Source: an uncultured Pseudomonadota bacterium | Lineage (GTDB): Bacteria; Pseudomonadota; Gammaproteobacteria; Steroidobacterales; Steroidobacteraceae | Direction of reading: 5' to 3' | DNA: 36,109 nt | Assembly: GCA_903929455.1 (NCBI GenBank) | Contig: CAIYVA010000142.1 | Coordinates: 1-36,109, forward strand | Part shown: positions 32,753-36,105 of the stretch, one piece after another | Layout of the letters: each line of letters begins with the position of its first letter | Position numbering within the stretch: position 1 is the first letter of the stretch | Translations under genes and position numbers: made by a program | Notes under the pieces: model-generated | Told to the model about the DNA's origin: nothing | Seen by the model: the letters and a program-made list of their open reading frames with translations, nothing else | The model's database searches: none

Positions 32753-33193
32753 TCAGGACGTGCACCACTGCAATCGAGGGGTTCCACCCTCATCACAGCA
32801 CACCACTGCATTTTGCTGGTATCTCGTACCAAGCATCAAGGCATCTGCCTGACTCACACCCAATACCAGAAGCCCACACTCGATCGGCCACTGTTCGGTT
32901 GAATCCAGCGCTTCCGCTGACAAGTAAGCGAAGCCCGCTGTGCGTAAATCCGCGAGCAAATGCGCGTGCGCCCGCGCATTCACATGCTCGTCACACAAGA
33001 CACTATAGGGATTCCATGCCGTCATAAATGCTGAGGCGTTAACGCCATGTCGCACATGACACTGCCGCAGTACCGCGCTCGGTTGATCAATGAGCAACGT
33101 AAAGGACTCCCCGGCCTCATGGATCCGGTAATGAGCCTGCCTATACGCTCGCTCACACGCAGCGCGCTCGACCCTTGGCGCCAAGTCATTCAT
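32753..33193 (-). CDS. DUF3293 domain protein
   Basis: 146 residues. Family landmarks are YRIHEAGESFTLLIDQPS, SAFMTAWNPYS, LADLRTAGFAYL and LLVLGVSQADALMLGTRYQQNAVV, where the last one (GxxxxQNAVV) is especially recognisable. No function is known for the family. The ATG lies inside the kfrA-like stop (8-base overlap, ATGAATGA), so it is expected to be translated together with the KfrA-like protein. Whether it shares its role or is a host gene joined by chance is unclear. Confidence 0.82.
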   Translation of the reverse strand: MNDLAPRVERAACERAYRQAHYRIHEAGESFTLLIDQPSAVLRQCHVRHGVNASAFMTAWNPYSVLCDEHVNARAHAHLLADLRTAGFAYLSAEALDSTEQWPIECGLLVLGVSQADALMLGTRYQQNAVVCCDEGGTPRLQWCTS

Positions 33194-33650
33194 GCGGGAT
33201 GATCGGCGCTACCGACTGCAGAGCGCGCTCCAACTCAACAATGCGCGCATGTGCACTGGCCAATGCCCGAGTCAACTCCGTCACCCGGGTGCGATGCACA
33301 GCCATTTCCTGCTGAATGCGATCCGTGGCTTCCGCTTTATGACGCAAGGCATCCATCTCGCGCGCCCATCGAGCCTGATGAACCCGCTCTCGTTCCTCAG
33401 CCACTTCCGCCCGCGCAATCGCCGCCTCCCTCGATTCATCAGACGCACTTCGATACGCCGGTGTCGCCGCCGGGGGCACCGGTGTGGTGGCTCTGGCCAA
33501 CAAGCGATACACGCGGGTGACGCCGCCACGTGCGCCATAGCGCCGCGCCAGCAAGGCCCGAACGGCCACCCCAGTCACCCGAGGACCCAGACTTTGGATC
33601 TCCTGGATCGCGGCGCTGATGGCATCGTCGGTGAGTAAAGGGGGTCGCAT
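33186..33650 (-). CDS. KfrA-like DNA-binding protein with coiled coil
   Basis: 154 residues. The N-terminal part (LLTDDAISAAIQEIQSLGPR, ALLARRYGARGGVTRVYRLL) matches the KfrA N-terminal DNA-binding domain; from about residue 70 to 145 the sequence is a long charged heptad-like helix (RAEVAEERERVHQARWAREM), so a coiled coil. KfrA proteins are plasmid-encoded, bind DNA at palindromes and support stable inheritance. The gene lies just after parB/parS, as on IncP plasmids. Shorter than RK2 KfrA (about 300 residues), mostly in the coil. A perfect palindrome overlaps its promoter. Confidence 0.78.
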   Translation of the reverse strand: MRPPLLTDDAISAAIQEIQSLGPRVTGVAVRALLARRYGARGGVTRVYRLLARATTPVPPAATPAYRSASDESREAAIARAEVAEERERVHQARWAREMDALRHKAEATDRIQQEMAVHRTRVTELTRALASAHARIVELERALQSVAPIIPHE

Positions 33651-33668
33651 CCGAGACAGACTACCATC

Positions 33669-33690
33669 ATTACGGAAAATTTTCCGTAAT
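33669..33690. promoter_or_regulatory. 22-bp perfect palindrome, KfrA-type operator
   Basis: The left half is ATTACGGAAAA, and the right half is its exact complement (TTTTCCGTAAT), with no spacer. It lies 19 bases before the kfrA-like start and overlaps the -10. A KfrA palindrome over the promoter is the known mode of autorepression in this family. Confidence 0.7.
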
Positions 33691-33717
33691 CATACTTTTT
33701 AGTCTCTTTGCGGTTAA
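33689..33717 (-). promoter_or_regulatory. Sigma70-like promoter of the kfrA-like gene
   Basis: On the minus strand TTAACC (33717-33712) as -35, a 17-base spacer, and TATGAT (33694-33689) as -10. It matches 4/6 and 5/6 consensus bases. The -10 overlaps the end of the palindrome at 33669-33690, so a protein bound there would block it. Confidence 0.6.
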
Positions 33718-33940
33718 AAATAGGCTGCTTAAATAAAGTAATAATCAATATAATCAATTACTTATTTATTTAAATGTTCCACGCGATGTTCCACGAAAGC
33801 GCTGCCGCTGCCTTAGGTGGCACCACGCACTGGCATGGCTGGCCTACCCGCATCGTGCCGTGGTGCGGTTTCGTGTACCCAAAGTGCTATATATTCGTTT
33901 AAATTCAATTAGTTACTGATGTTTCGTCTCGAAACTAGGC
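33691..33940. other. Candidate partition centromere (parS) with IHF site and repeats
   Basis: Gene-free 250 bases between parB and the kfrA-like gene. 33691-33774 is 79% A+T. AATCAATTACTTA (33752-33764) is a perfect IHF consensus. TGTTCCACG occurs twice, at 33775-33783 and 33787-33795 (12-base period), and is half of a chromosomal-type parS. Further CCACG at 33823-33827, CGTGG at 33859-33863, and CACGAAA (33792-33798) versus TTTCGTG (33869-33875) form inverted copies. GTTTCG-TCT-CGAAAC (33921-33935) lies at the parB end. The order parA-parB-parS with an IHF site matches P1-type systems. Confidence 0.6.
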
Positions 33941-34918
33941 TTAGCTCAGGTCTTTCAGCACCTGCTCCATGGCCTGCATCACGCCCTCTCGATCCGCCAC
34001 CTTAAGTCCCTTCGGGAAAGCCAGCGTGACTTTGCCCTTGGAGTTGCGCGTGAGGATGGCGCGACCAGCGCTACCGACGTTGTACTCGCGACGCATCGGG
34101 GGAAGTTTGCGGGTTTGATCGAGGCTTGCCAGCAAGAGCTTTAACACCACCCGTGGATCACGCCCCCCCTCCTCCTCACGCCGCGCCAAATTCTTAGCGG
34201 CCTGCAGCACCACATCCCGAGCGCCCGGACGCTCCATGAGGGCAATGAGCTTATATGCCTGCTCTACAGGCACCGCGGACCGATCGACGATCAGGCTGGC
34301 GATGGGGCCATGATTGAGCAATTGGGCTGCCTTCAGCATCTTGGCCACCTGCCCTTTTGACACGTTTAAGGCATGCGCCAGCGAGTCCTGGGTCGGAAAT
34401 AACTTGGCTTCCAACTGGATCTGAAAGGACAAGGCGCGCTCCATCGGCGTGATGTCCTGGCGATCGGCATTCTCCAAATGCATCAATACCGCTGCTTGGC
34501 TGTCAGGGATCTCCACTACCCGCACTTTCAATTTGTGATTGGTGGCTTCACAGGCATAGCGGCGACGCATGCCGTAGATGATTTCATAGTCAAAATCGCT
34601 GTCCCCCACCACGCGACGCGCCAACGCGGGTTCTTGTTGGCCATCTTTCGGGATGGACTGAATCAGATCCTCGCAGCGCTCGCGCGTGTACCAGGCGGCG
34701 GTACGGTTATGGTATTTCCAGCCACGGCACCGCTTCGGATCGACGCTTAAAATGGTCTCACGGGTAAGTCCCGGGCTCGTACGCCCTTGCAGTGCCAGCT
34801 CAGCCGTCGGCAGCACCGCGCGCATCCCGGCGCGAGCCGGTTCCACGTCAGGACGACTTTTTAAGGAGGTGGCGATATCGCCTAACTTCGTACCGCCAAA
34901 TAGCTTCTTATTGCTCAT
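33941..34918 (-). CDS. parB: ParB-type centromere-binding protein
   Basis: 325 residues from ATG 34918, with a G-rich SD just upstream; 11 bases separate it from the parA stop. The ParB/Srx CTPase domain is visible: GQQEPALARRV (box I), YEIIYGMRRRYAC (GxRRxxA, CTP binding) and HLENADRQDITPMERALSF (ENxxRxD-type box). The central helix-turn-helix is DSLAHALNVSKGQVAKMLKAAQLL. The C-terminal part (VGSAGRAILTRNSKGKVTL) should be the dimer domain. It would bind the parS candidate just downstream of its gene and act with ParA in segregation. It is more like plasmid and chromid ParB than the Spo0J-like chromosomal type. Confidence 0.92.
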   Translation of the reverse strand: MSNKKLFGGTKLGDIATSLKSRPDVEPARAGMRAVLPTAELALQGRTSPGLTRETILSVDPKRCRGWKYHNRTAAWYTRERCEDLIQSIPKDGQQEPALARRVVGDSDFDYEIIYGMRRRYACEATNHKLKVRVVEIPDSQAAVLMHLENADRQDITPMERALSFQIQLEAKLFPTQDSLAHALNVSKGQVAKMLKAAQLLNHGPIASLIVDRSAVPVEQAYKLIALMERPGARDVVLQAAKNLARREEEGGRDPRVVLKLLLASLDQTRKLPPMRREYNVGSAGRAILTRNSKGKVTLAFPKGLKVADREGVMQAMEQVLKDLS

Positions 34919-34929
34919 CCCCGCCCCCT

Positions 34930-36105
34930 TCAGGTTATGCCCTGCGCACTTAATTCCGTTCGTTTGGATGGCCACTCACGCAAAATCGCCAGTTCGATCT
35001 CGCGATAGACACCATCCATCATCTCGAGCACCTTGCGATTAGGCTTCGCGACCTCGTACGGGCCCACGAACTGCGCCGACGCATTAATGACTTCCGCCGA
35101 ATGGAAAAACACGCGTTGGAATACTGACTCACCAAAACACGCGCGCATCACATCTACAAACTGCCGCTGACTGTCATAGCGCTGGTCATACAGCGTGGTC
35201 AGCACCGAAATCCATCGATAGCTCTTATCCGGTGCAAGCTGCGCCACGTAATTTCGGATCATCCGAAAGAACTGCACGGTCGATGAGAAATCGAACATCT
35301 TGGCGGCGGTTGGCACTAACAGGGCATCCGCCGCGATCAACACGTTGAGAGAAATCACGCCTAAGGCCGGTGGCGAATCGAGCAGCACCACGTCGTAGTT
35401 CTGTGCCACCGTCTGAATACCGTAACTGAGCTCCGCAAAGACCTCCCGACGGGCCTCCGGGGTCGCCTGCTCGGCGATGTGCAGTACCAAGGCGATCTCT
35501 GCCTCATACAGCGCCAGACACGCTGGAATCAAATCAATTCCCGGGAAATAGGTCTTTCGCACCACCGGCTCTAAGGTGGGATGTGCGCCGCCTAAGTACG
35601 CCAAGATCGTATCGTCTTGCGCGATCTCCGCATCCGGCACGTAGCCAAACATCGAGGTGGTGGTCGCCTGACTGTCGGTATCAATCACCAAGACGCGATA
35701 CCCCTTCAGCGCCAGGTAATGCGCGAAGTTAATGCAGGTGGTCGACTTGCCCACGCCGCCTTTGAAGTTCTGACACGCAATGACCATCGGTTGGTCGCGC
35801 TCAGGATCCCGGTGCGGCAAAGTCCCAAAGTGAGCGCGAAATGCTTGGACCTGCTCTAAGGTGTACCCCACCCGACGGTTGTTATCGGGATTGCGGGCAG
35901 CCGGTGTCACCATGAGTTCCGCCTCCGCCCGCGCTAAGGTCGTGCGATCACGCCCCACCATGGCAGCGGCTTCCGAGGGACTGAACAAACGCTGCAGAGA
36001 CTTACGCTCGTGCGGCGACTGCCCCATCTCGTGCATCTTGGTCAAAAAGCTTTCGCTGGACGCCAGAATGTCGTCTAACTTGTCAATCGCTCGGGTGACT
36101 GGCAC
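34930..36105 (-). CDS. parA: Type Ia ParA partition ATPase, 5' end at the window edge
   Basis: 391 residues from GTG 36105; the frame stays open to the window end, so the true start may lie outside. The N-terminal 100 residues contain a MerR-like helix-turn-helix (LFSPSEAAAMVGRDRTTLARA), the mark of P1-type (Ia) ParA, which also represses its own operon. The ATPase core has the deviant Walker A NFKGGVGKSTTCINFAHYLA with the signature Lys, VLVIDTDSQATTTSMFG (A') and VVLLDSPPALGVISLNVL (Walker B). It is followed immediately by parB. ParA binds nucleoid DNA with ATP and moves ParB-bound replicons. Confidence 0.93.
   Translation of the reverse strand: MPVTRAIDKLDDILASSESFLTKMHEMGQSPHERKSLQRLFSPSEAAAMVGRDRTTLARAEAELMVTPAARNPDNNRRVGYTLEQVQAFRAHFGTLPHRDPERDQPMVIACQNFKGGVGKSTTCINFAHYLALKGYRVLVIDTDSQATTTSMFGYVPDAEIAQDDTILAYLGGAHPTLEPVVRKTYFPGIDLIPACLALYEAEIALVLHIAEQATPEARREVFAELSYGIQTVAQNYDVVLLDSPPALGVISLNVLIAADALLVPTAAKMFDFSSTVQFFRMIRNYVAQLAPDKSYRWISVLTTLYDQRYDSQRQFVDVMRACFGESVFQRVFFHSAEVINASAQFVGPYEVAKPNRKVLEMMDGVYREIELAILREWPSKRTELSAQGIT

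Follow-up and report, generated by a model that had tools for sequence, protein, structure and literature searches.

A likely parS module of P1-like layout and a separate conserved cassette downstream of a parAB locus in the Steroidobacteraceae

The partition locus and its replicon

The window, by which we mean the whole stretch of DNA analysed here, is an entire contig of 36,109 bp from a 2.44-Mb assembly of 244 contigs. Metabolic and housekeeping-type genes fill most of it and a partition locus occupies its right end, where parA, parB and a gene for a KfrA-like protein all lie on the minus strand (Table 1). As a preliminary description of this DNA had it, the segment between the KfrA-like gene and parB (33651-33940) is gene-free, with no open reading frame of 80 aa or more. 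An Rfam scan returned a single sub-threshold match (E 0.57, 18 bits versus the 33 needed), and blastn of 33660-33945 against plasmid and phage collections gave no convincing relative: of the best 20 of 22 plasmid matches, none covered more than 17% of the query. At a related locus (L035; loci and genomes are cited by L and G numbers), a RepA_C gene lies divergent from parA and is followed by MobA/MobL and VirB3/VirB4 genes, and long RepA matches were found in stretches from nine further relatives. Hence the right end of the window is a plasmid or chromid backbone. The segment is best explained as part of a secondary replicon, comprising its centromere and the control region next to it.

Table 1. 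Features at the right end of the window, in order of position
Feature	Positions	Strand	Remarks
KfrA-like gene	33186..33650	-	154 aa; exactly one homologue in 14/15 genomes of the genus
Palindrome ATTACGGAAAATTTTCCGTAAT	33669..33690		Candidate KfrA-like operator; adjoins promoter-like site
Cassette IHF-like site AATCAATTACTTA	33752..33764	+	10-11 nt from direct repeat in 19/23 loci, at most 2 mismatches
Direct repeat TGTTCCACG-CGA-TGTTCCACG	33775..33795	+	Half-sites of genus parS; assigned to KfrA cassette, not to parS of the window's ParB
Variable spacer	33796..33867		Unconserved by eye; terminator-like hairpin 33848-33868 overlaps its end
Likely parS module	33868-33935	-	68 bp: GTTTCG-N3-CGAAAC, 5 nt, IHF-like site, box GGTACACGAAAC
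Likely parS, second box GGTACACGAAAC	33868..33879	-	About 41 nt after palindrome
Likely parS, IHF-like site TAACTAATTGAAT	33903..33915	-	One mismatch to the consensus that we take to be that of IHF
Likely parS, core palindrome GTTTCGAGACGAAAC	33921..33935	-	Directly after parB; own assembly's only copy
parB	33941..34918	-	325 aa; start moved by alignment from 344-aa ORF; TIGR00180 E 6.9e-27
parA	34930..36105	-	ParA/SopA/RepA-type ATPase; PF13614 2.8e-36

The ParA protein carries its PF13614 domain at residues 108-289, with about 107 residues ahead of the ATPase domain, and the contig may break off a few residues short of the N-terminus; its gene stands upstream of parB. Its best named models were TIGR03453 (2.3e-69) and a SopA model (8e-58), both under their curated cut-offs. 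We also built a structure model of ParB from 16 sequences, which reached moderate quality only (pLDDT 78.1, pTM 0.63). In this model, the N-terminal domain resembles KorB and CTP- or CDP-bound ParB, the middle part superposes on the helix-turn-helix (HTH) DNA-binding domain of SopB (Z 13.2, rmsd 3.0 over 113), and the HTH part resembles P1 ParB in complex with DNA (2ntz, Z 8.9; 1zx4, Z 8.5). The predicted order of the C-terminal domain is beta-beta-beta-helix (EEEH), the topology that PMC5016525 describes for ParB/SopB. SopB and P1 ParB were absent among the matches listed in PDB sequence searches with ParB. Features of type Ia ParABS systems (the P1/F class) are present here, namely a ParA-type ATPase with a long N-terminal region and, as far as a moderate model tells, the ParB HTH and C-terminal topology.

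A likely parS module beside parB

The preliminary description had proposed a P1-like parS downstream of parB, made up of an IHF site at 33752-33764 and a pair of TGTTCCACG repeats. Close relatives of ParB (64-94%) are encoded in 10 of the 14 other genomes of the genus and in G027, and we used them to footprint the DNA downstream of parB. In this DNA lies a 68-bp module whose core palindrome, GTTTCGNNNCGAAAC, had gone unnamed in that description. The palindrome is present in 12 of the 15 genus genomes, one copy each, and 11 copies adjoin a close parB, in G005 one that is split over two contigs. The remaining copy, in G003, lies within an HbpS-like gene of a genome with no parB match; we took it as a chance copy, which shows that the palindrome alone can arise by chance. 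The three genomes that lack the palindrome (G001, G010 and G012) all lack a close parB.

We aligned 20 modules, 19 of which differ in sequence (those of L057 and L064 are identical). An IHF-like site (YAANNNNTTGAW-like, one mismatch allowed) begins 5 nt past the palindrome in all 20, with its AAC and TG invariant. The second box reads GGTACAC in 10 rows and TACAC in 14, the latter being absent from L044, L058, L059, L063, L077 and L149. Dyad pairs of the palindrome are kept in 97.1% of cells; the figure is 89.3% after shuffling (0 of 500) and 18.6-60.7% with the frame slid. Five of the seven pairs never vary and are hence uninformative alone, the outermost pair fails in four rows, and an inner pair is altered on both sides in five, two of which have an identical module sequence.

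In a sister clade (seven rows), the whole module has its place between parA and parB. There, both arms of the palindrome have changed to GTTTCC-N3-GGAAAC in five rows, and GTTTCG-N3-CGAAAC still stands in L058 and L063. When 12 ParBs of the GTTTCG type were aligned with four of the GTTTCC type (n=16), 20 columns discriminated between them. Residues 219 (D/E to A/I) and 223 (K to N), both in the DNA-binding domain, differ in the four GTTTCC-type proteins. Judged by the superposition range of the model, these residues may lie near the Arg outside the HTH that SopB uses; we treat this as a lead only.

The association with ParB extends beyond the genus. Across 396 genomes of the order, the palindrome plus an IHF-like half-site was found at 18 places in 16 genomes (a reversed control gave 0), and all 18 adjoin a ParB of the window's family at 41-100% identity. 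Two of these places share one sequence, and the place in G005 adjoins a parB fragment at a contig end. A further locus, L060 (ParB 57%), has two palindromes and no IHF-like site at the standard spacing, and was missed by the module pattern.

On its conservation, spacing, co-variation and linkage to ParB, we consider 33868-33935 very likely to be the parS of the window's ParB, with a P1-like layout and with letters and a place of its own. A ParB dimer would most likely bind GTTTCG-N3-CGAAAC by means of its SopB-like HTH domain; IHF would bend the DNA at the site adjoining the palindrome, the second box 41 nt on would join the complex, and ParA would then move the ParB-centromere complex. The same genome contains what we infer to be the genes for both IHF subunits, an IHF-alpha-like gene beside a pheT-like gene and an IHF-beta-like gene beside an rpsA-like gene.

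The place downstream of parB and the layout of boxes flanking an IHF site were therefore rightly seen in the preliminary description, and the elements that it had named were not the right ones. The TGTTCCACG pair and the site at 33752-33764 do stand downstream of parB, and genus loci with a window-type ParB conserve both, but the same pair and IHF-like site also occur on replicons whose ParB is about 28-32% identical and which have their own palindromes beside parB. Moreover, nine places in seven genomes encode the window's ParB family and keep the module (GTTTCS-N3-SGAAAC) with no TGTTCCACG-type pair in the 2.4-16 kb of each stretch; at one of them, L064, there is one lone half-site at a distance of about 4 kb. 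These nine come from 12 loci, since L159/L059, L160/L064 and L162/L044 are each the same place seen twice. The pair is likewise found without the module, so that module and cassette are separable. We rejected the pair and its IHF site as the parS of this ParB, a very improbable reading given that the pair and the ParB family occur apart. The suggestion of a new ParB specificity can be kept for the GTTTCG-N3-CGAAAC palindrome and has to be dropped for the TGTTCCACG repeats. The inverted CCACG/CGTGG and CCACGAAA copies that had been pointed out look like chance: the CGTGG-bearing spacer is unconserved by eye, and we rejected the CCACG/CGTGG copies as signal. TTTCGTG at 33870-33876 belongs to the conserved box GTTTCGTGTACC (33868-33879).

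We rejected as extremely improbable the reading in which the palindrome serves the parAB transcript as an intrinsic terminator and is no centromere. The palindrome could form a hairpin right after the parB stop codon, but it is missing from the output of the terminator scan and lies upstream of parB in the sister clade, and conservation extends past it into the IHF-like site and the second box.

A shared cassette ahead of the KfrA-like gene

The elements named at first are real in the window. The site at 33752-33764, AATCAATTACTTA, is a perfect match to WATCAANNNNTTR, the consensus that we take to be that of IHF and used for scoring sites here, and the two TGTTCCACG copies stand at 33775-33783 and 33787-33795 with a 12-base period. 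A search for the repeat elsewhere, which had been recommended, showed that TGTTYCACG in the window is solely this pair. Neither element stands out statistically: the IHF consensus has 2 matches in the window versus 0.82 expected, and 19 of 100 shuffles reach 2, so that it is not above chance alone; for TGTTYCACG, 0.64 are expected and 12 of 100 shuffles give two anywhere. Pair and IHF-like site are credible because they are conserved.

From the pair towards the KfrA-like gene, the cassette runs through the IHF-like site to an ACGGAAA-type palindrome (ACGGAAANNTTTCCGT). Among the 23 cassette loci, which leave out a spurious pattern match at L030, 19 have such a palindrome (at most 4 mismatches), and in 18 of these it lies at +87 to +89 nt from the pair (+88 in L075); in L079 it lies at +97. 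The other four (L060, L149, L150 and L151) keep the pair, lack the palindrome and by eye carry an AATCAA or ATCAA motif in opposite orientation. L150 and L151 have other inverted repeats by eye and a KfrA-like protein about 30% identical; a palindrome scored at +115 in L151 was spurious. One genome, G011, has four cassettes (L038, L075, L080 and L122). In the window protein there was no KfrA_N match above the Pfam cut-off, and two homologues scored 23.7 and 21.3 bits versus the 26.1 required.

The surroundings of the cassette vary. In L037 and L038, no KfrA-like gene follows it and a TACTGTATAT...ACAGT box, presumably LexA-like, stands there instead. In L044 and L163 (G027 and G250), its place downstream of parB is taken by a second, Noc/Spo0J-like ParB gene (by eye for the L163 protein), preceded by TGTTCTACGTAGAACA or GGTTCTACGTAGAACA. 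The cassette is also present on a second replicon type, that with the ParB about 28-32% identical. This type encodes a protein X of 325-355 aa with no Pfam match, and the stretches examined gave no RepA_C match. Protein X (L072:8148-9143 and homologues) looks HTH-like by eye and is possibly a new replication initiator. By eye, L071-L075 and L078-L080 have at least two palindromes of their own downstream of parB, for example TATGYACGCGTRCATA, TTTAGCGCGCTAAA, AATTCCACGCGTGGAATT and TTTAACGCGTTAAA, and L072 has a SoPB_HTH match.

The repeat had been described as differing from the canonical 16-bp parS, which is wrong, as TGTTCCACG is half of canonical parS plus one base. Across 46 units it reads CGTGRAACA, with 40 G and 6 A at position 5, with 42 A, 3 G and 1 C at position 9, and with one deviation at position 1; part of this likeness to parS is built in, since at position 5 the search patterns accepted no letters other than R or Y. 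The TGTTYCACGTGRAACA form of parS (one mismatch allowed) is found in 13 of the 15 genus genomes as two copies 612 bp apart, and all mismatches fall at the outermost base, which corresponds to repeat position 9. These sites are presumably chromosomal, and in G011 and G013 a canonical-type ParB match shares their contig. The window's own assembly has 0 sites of TGTTYCACGTGRAACA over its 16 bp with up to 2 mismatches.

Rep, ParB and the KfrA-like operator differ between loci that share an unchanged repeat. The simplest reader of the repeat would hence be a host protein that is itself conserved, and since the repeat is half of the genus parS, chromosomal ParB is suggested as that protein. The TGTTCCACG pair, IHF site and TTACGGAAAATTTTCCGTAA palindrome make up a rigid cassette of their own, which would control the KfrA-like gene and probably help to maintain the replicon; the palindrome would be the KfrA-like operator, and chromosomal ParB is the best guess for what reads the pair. 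We put this forward tentatively, as a possible reading of a sequence pattern. Counting against chromosomal ParB as reader, the pair is found at 20 places in 19 of the 396 genomes of the order and its reversed control matches in 4 of 396, and three pair places in another genus (L146:7981, L147:8352 and L148:7887) have no par match in 16 kb.

Rather doubtful is the reading of the cassette as a replication origin, in which the pair would be two iterons or weak DnaA boxes with an IHF site and AT-rich DNA beside them, and Rep would bind the palindrome. The window does have AT-rich DNA, for which the preliminary description had considered a part in origin opening, and which is unconserved between species. 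At a locus of another genus (L081:3287-3382), eight tandem 12-bp CGTGGAACCATG repeats stand after the X gene. A contig of 1.27 Mb (G010, C14) has a second-type par/cassette locus at about 649-651 kb, and its GC skew changes in that region. In 40 samples of 20 kb, skew was negative in 20/20 to the left and positive in 13/20 to the right, the cumulative minimum fell in the sample from 640-660 kb, and a change point was best placed between the samples whose centres are 650 and 682 kb (p 5e-5 by permutation). However, skew places an origin only to tens of kb, and suggests that such par/cassette loci are origin-proximal, not that the window segment is the origin. In addition, one and the same cassette serves RepA_C replicons and replicons with no RepA_C match in the stretches examined that carry protein X, their guessed Rep. 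Contig C14 is possibly a second chromosome in the genus.

An extension of the maintenance cassette, distinctly doubtful at present, would make it a shared address tag on the secondary replicons of these bacteria, whatever their own Rep and Par. The tag would consist of a direct repeat of the parS half-site of the chromosome and a bend site, set at a constant distance from a KfrA-like operator. Chromosomal ParB, along with one trans-acting KfrA-like protein, would use it to tie plasmid and chromid upkeep to the main chromosome.

The pair could also be bound by the KfrA-like protein. According to PMC7783346, KfrA of RA3 binds 9-bp direct repeats, and the promoters of some KfrA proteins hold iterated repeats of that length as binding sites; the pair lies ahead of the KfrA-like gene. 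Such binding here is unlikely, as the pair is unchanged in the two loci with a KfrA-like protein about 30% identical and a different palindrome, and persists at five loci with no KfrA-like match in 10-16 kb (L037, L038, L075, L079 and L080).

Finally, a site of an OmpR-family response regulator is improbable. It would suit the three par-less places, since the pair of L148 stands between genes for a response regulator and a calcineurin-like phosphoesterase (Pfam) and those of L146 and L147 look alike by eye, but the period of the repeat varies from 12 to 14.

Comparison with known partition and control sites

The likely parS module would be a new-sequence centromere within a known, P1-like layout, with a separate, shared cassette beside it. 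Together with its ParB, the module offers a new pair of protein and centromere that can be put to the test, with variants of specificity supplied by nature, and it is set apart from the second element. If chromosomal ParB does read the cassette, this would link the segregation of the chromosome to secondary replicons, a matter still open for multipartite genomes. Among the matches listed, no paper on the parS module was found in the literature searched, which was accessible in part, and the exact module and repeat strings had no match there.

The cassette is like the KfrA operators of RA3 and RK2, as described in PMC7783346, in having repeats or a palindrome ahead of a KfrA-like gene. Unlike them, it is a rigid composite with an IHF-like site, is kept at loci that lack the gene, and stands before a gene for a protein of only 154 aa. 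Compared with chromosomal parS, TGTTYCACGTGRAACA, the cassette repeat equals one half-site plus one base; chromosomal parS is an inverted repeat, whereas the cassette is a direct repeat with a period of 12-14 bp.

Alphaproteobacterial plasmid parABS loci (four records, ParB 31-35%) are like the window and its relatives in having palindromes that either separate parA from parB or follow parB directly. The palindromes differ, being of the AATTGCAC type, TTGCCAATTGGCAA or GTTGCCCATGGGCAAC, and a GTTTC-type palindrome was found in none of the stretches from these four records.

With SopABC of F, the window shares a ParB/SopB-type C-terminus and a DNA-binding domain that superposes on that of SopB, both in a model of moderate quality, and a ParA match to the SopA model below its cut-off. 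The F centromere is an array with a palindrome of its own, whereas the window's family mostly has one copy of a different palindrome, together with an IHF-like site.

The P1 B-box hexamer is absent from both strands of 33851-33941. The core found there is instead palindromic over 15 bp, has a 3-bp centre and keeps a fixed spacing, which sets it apart from P1 parS. In the arrangement of its parts, the module is nevertheless like the P1 site, whose ParB boxes flank an IHF site (PMC5016525): two boxes of different sequence, both of them predicted to be bound, flank an IHF-like site beside parB.
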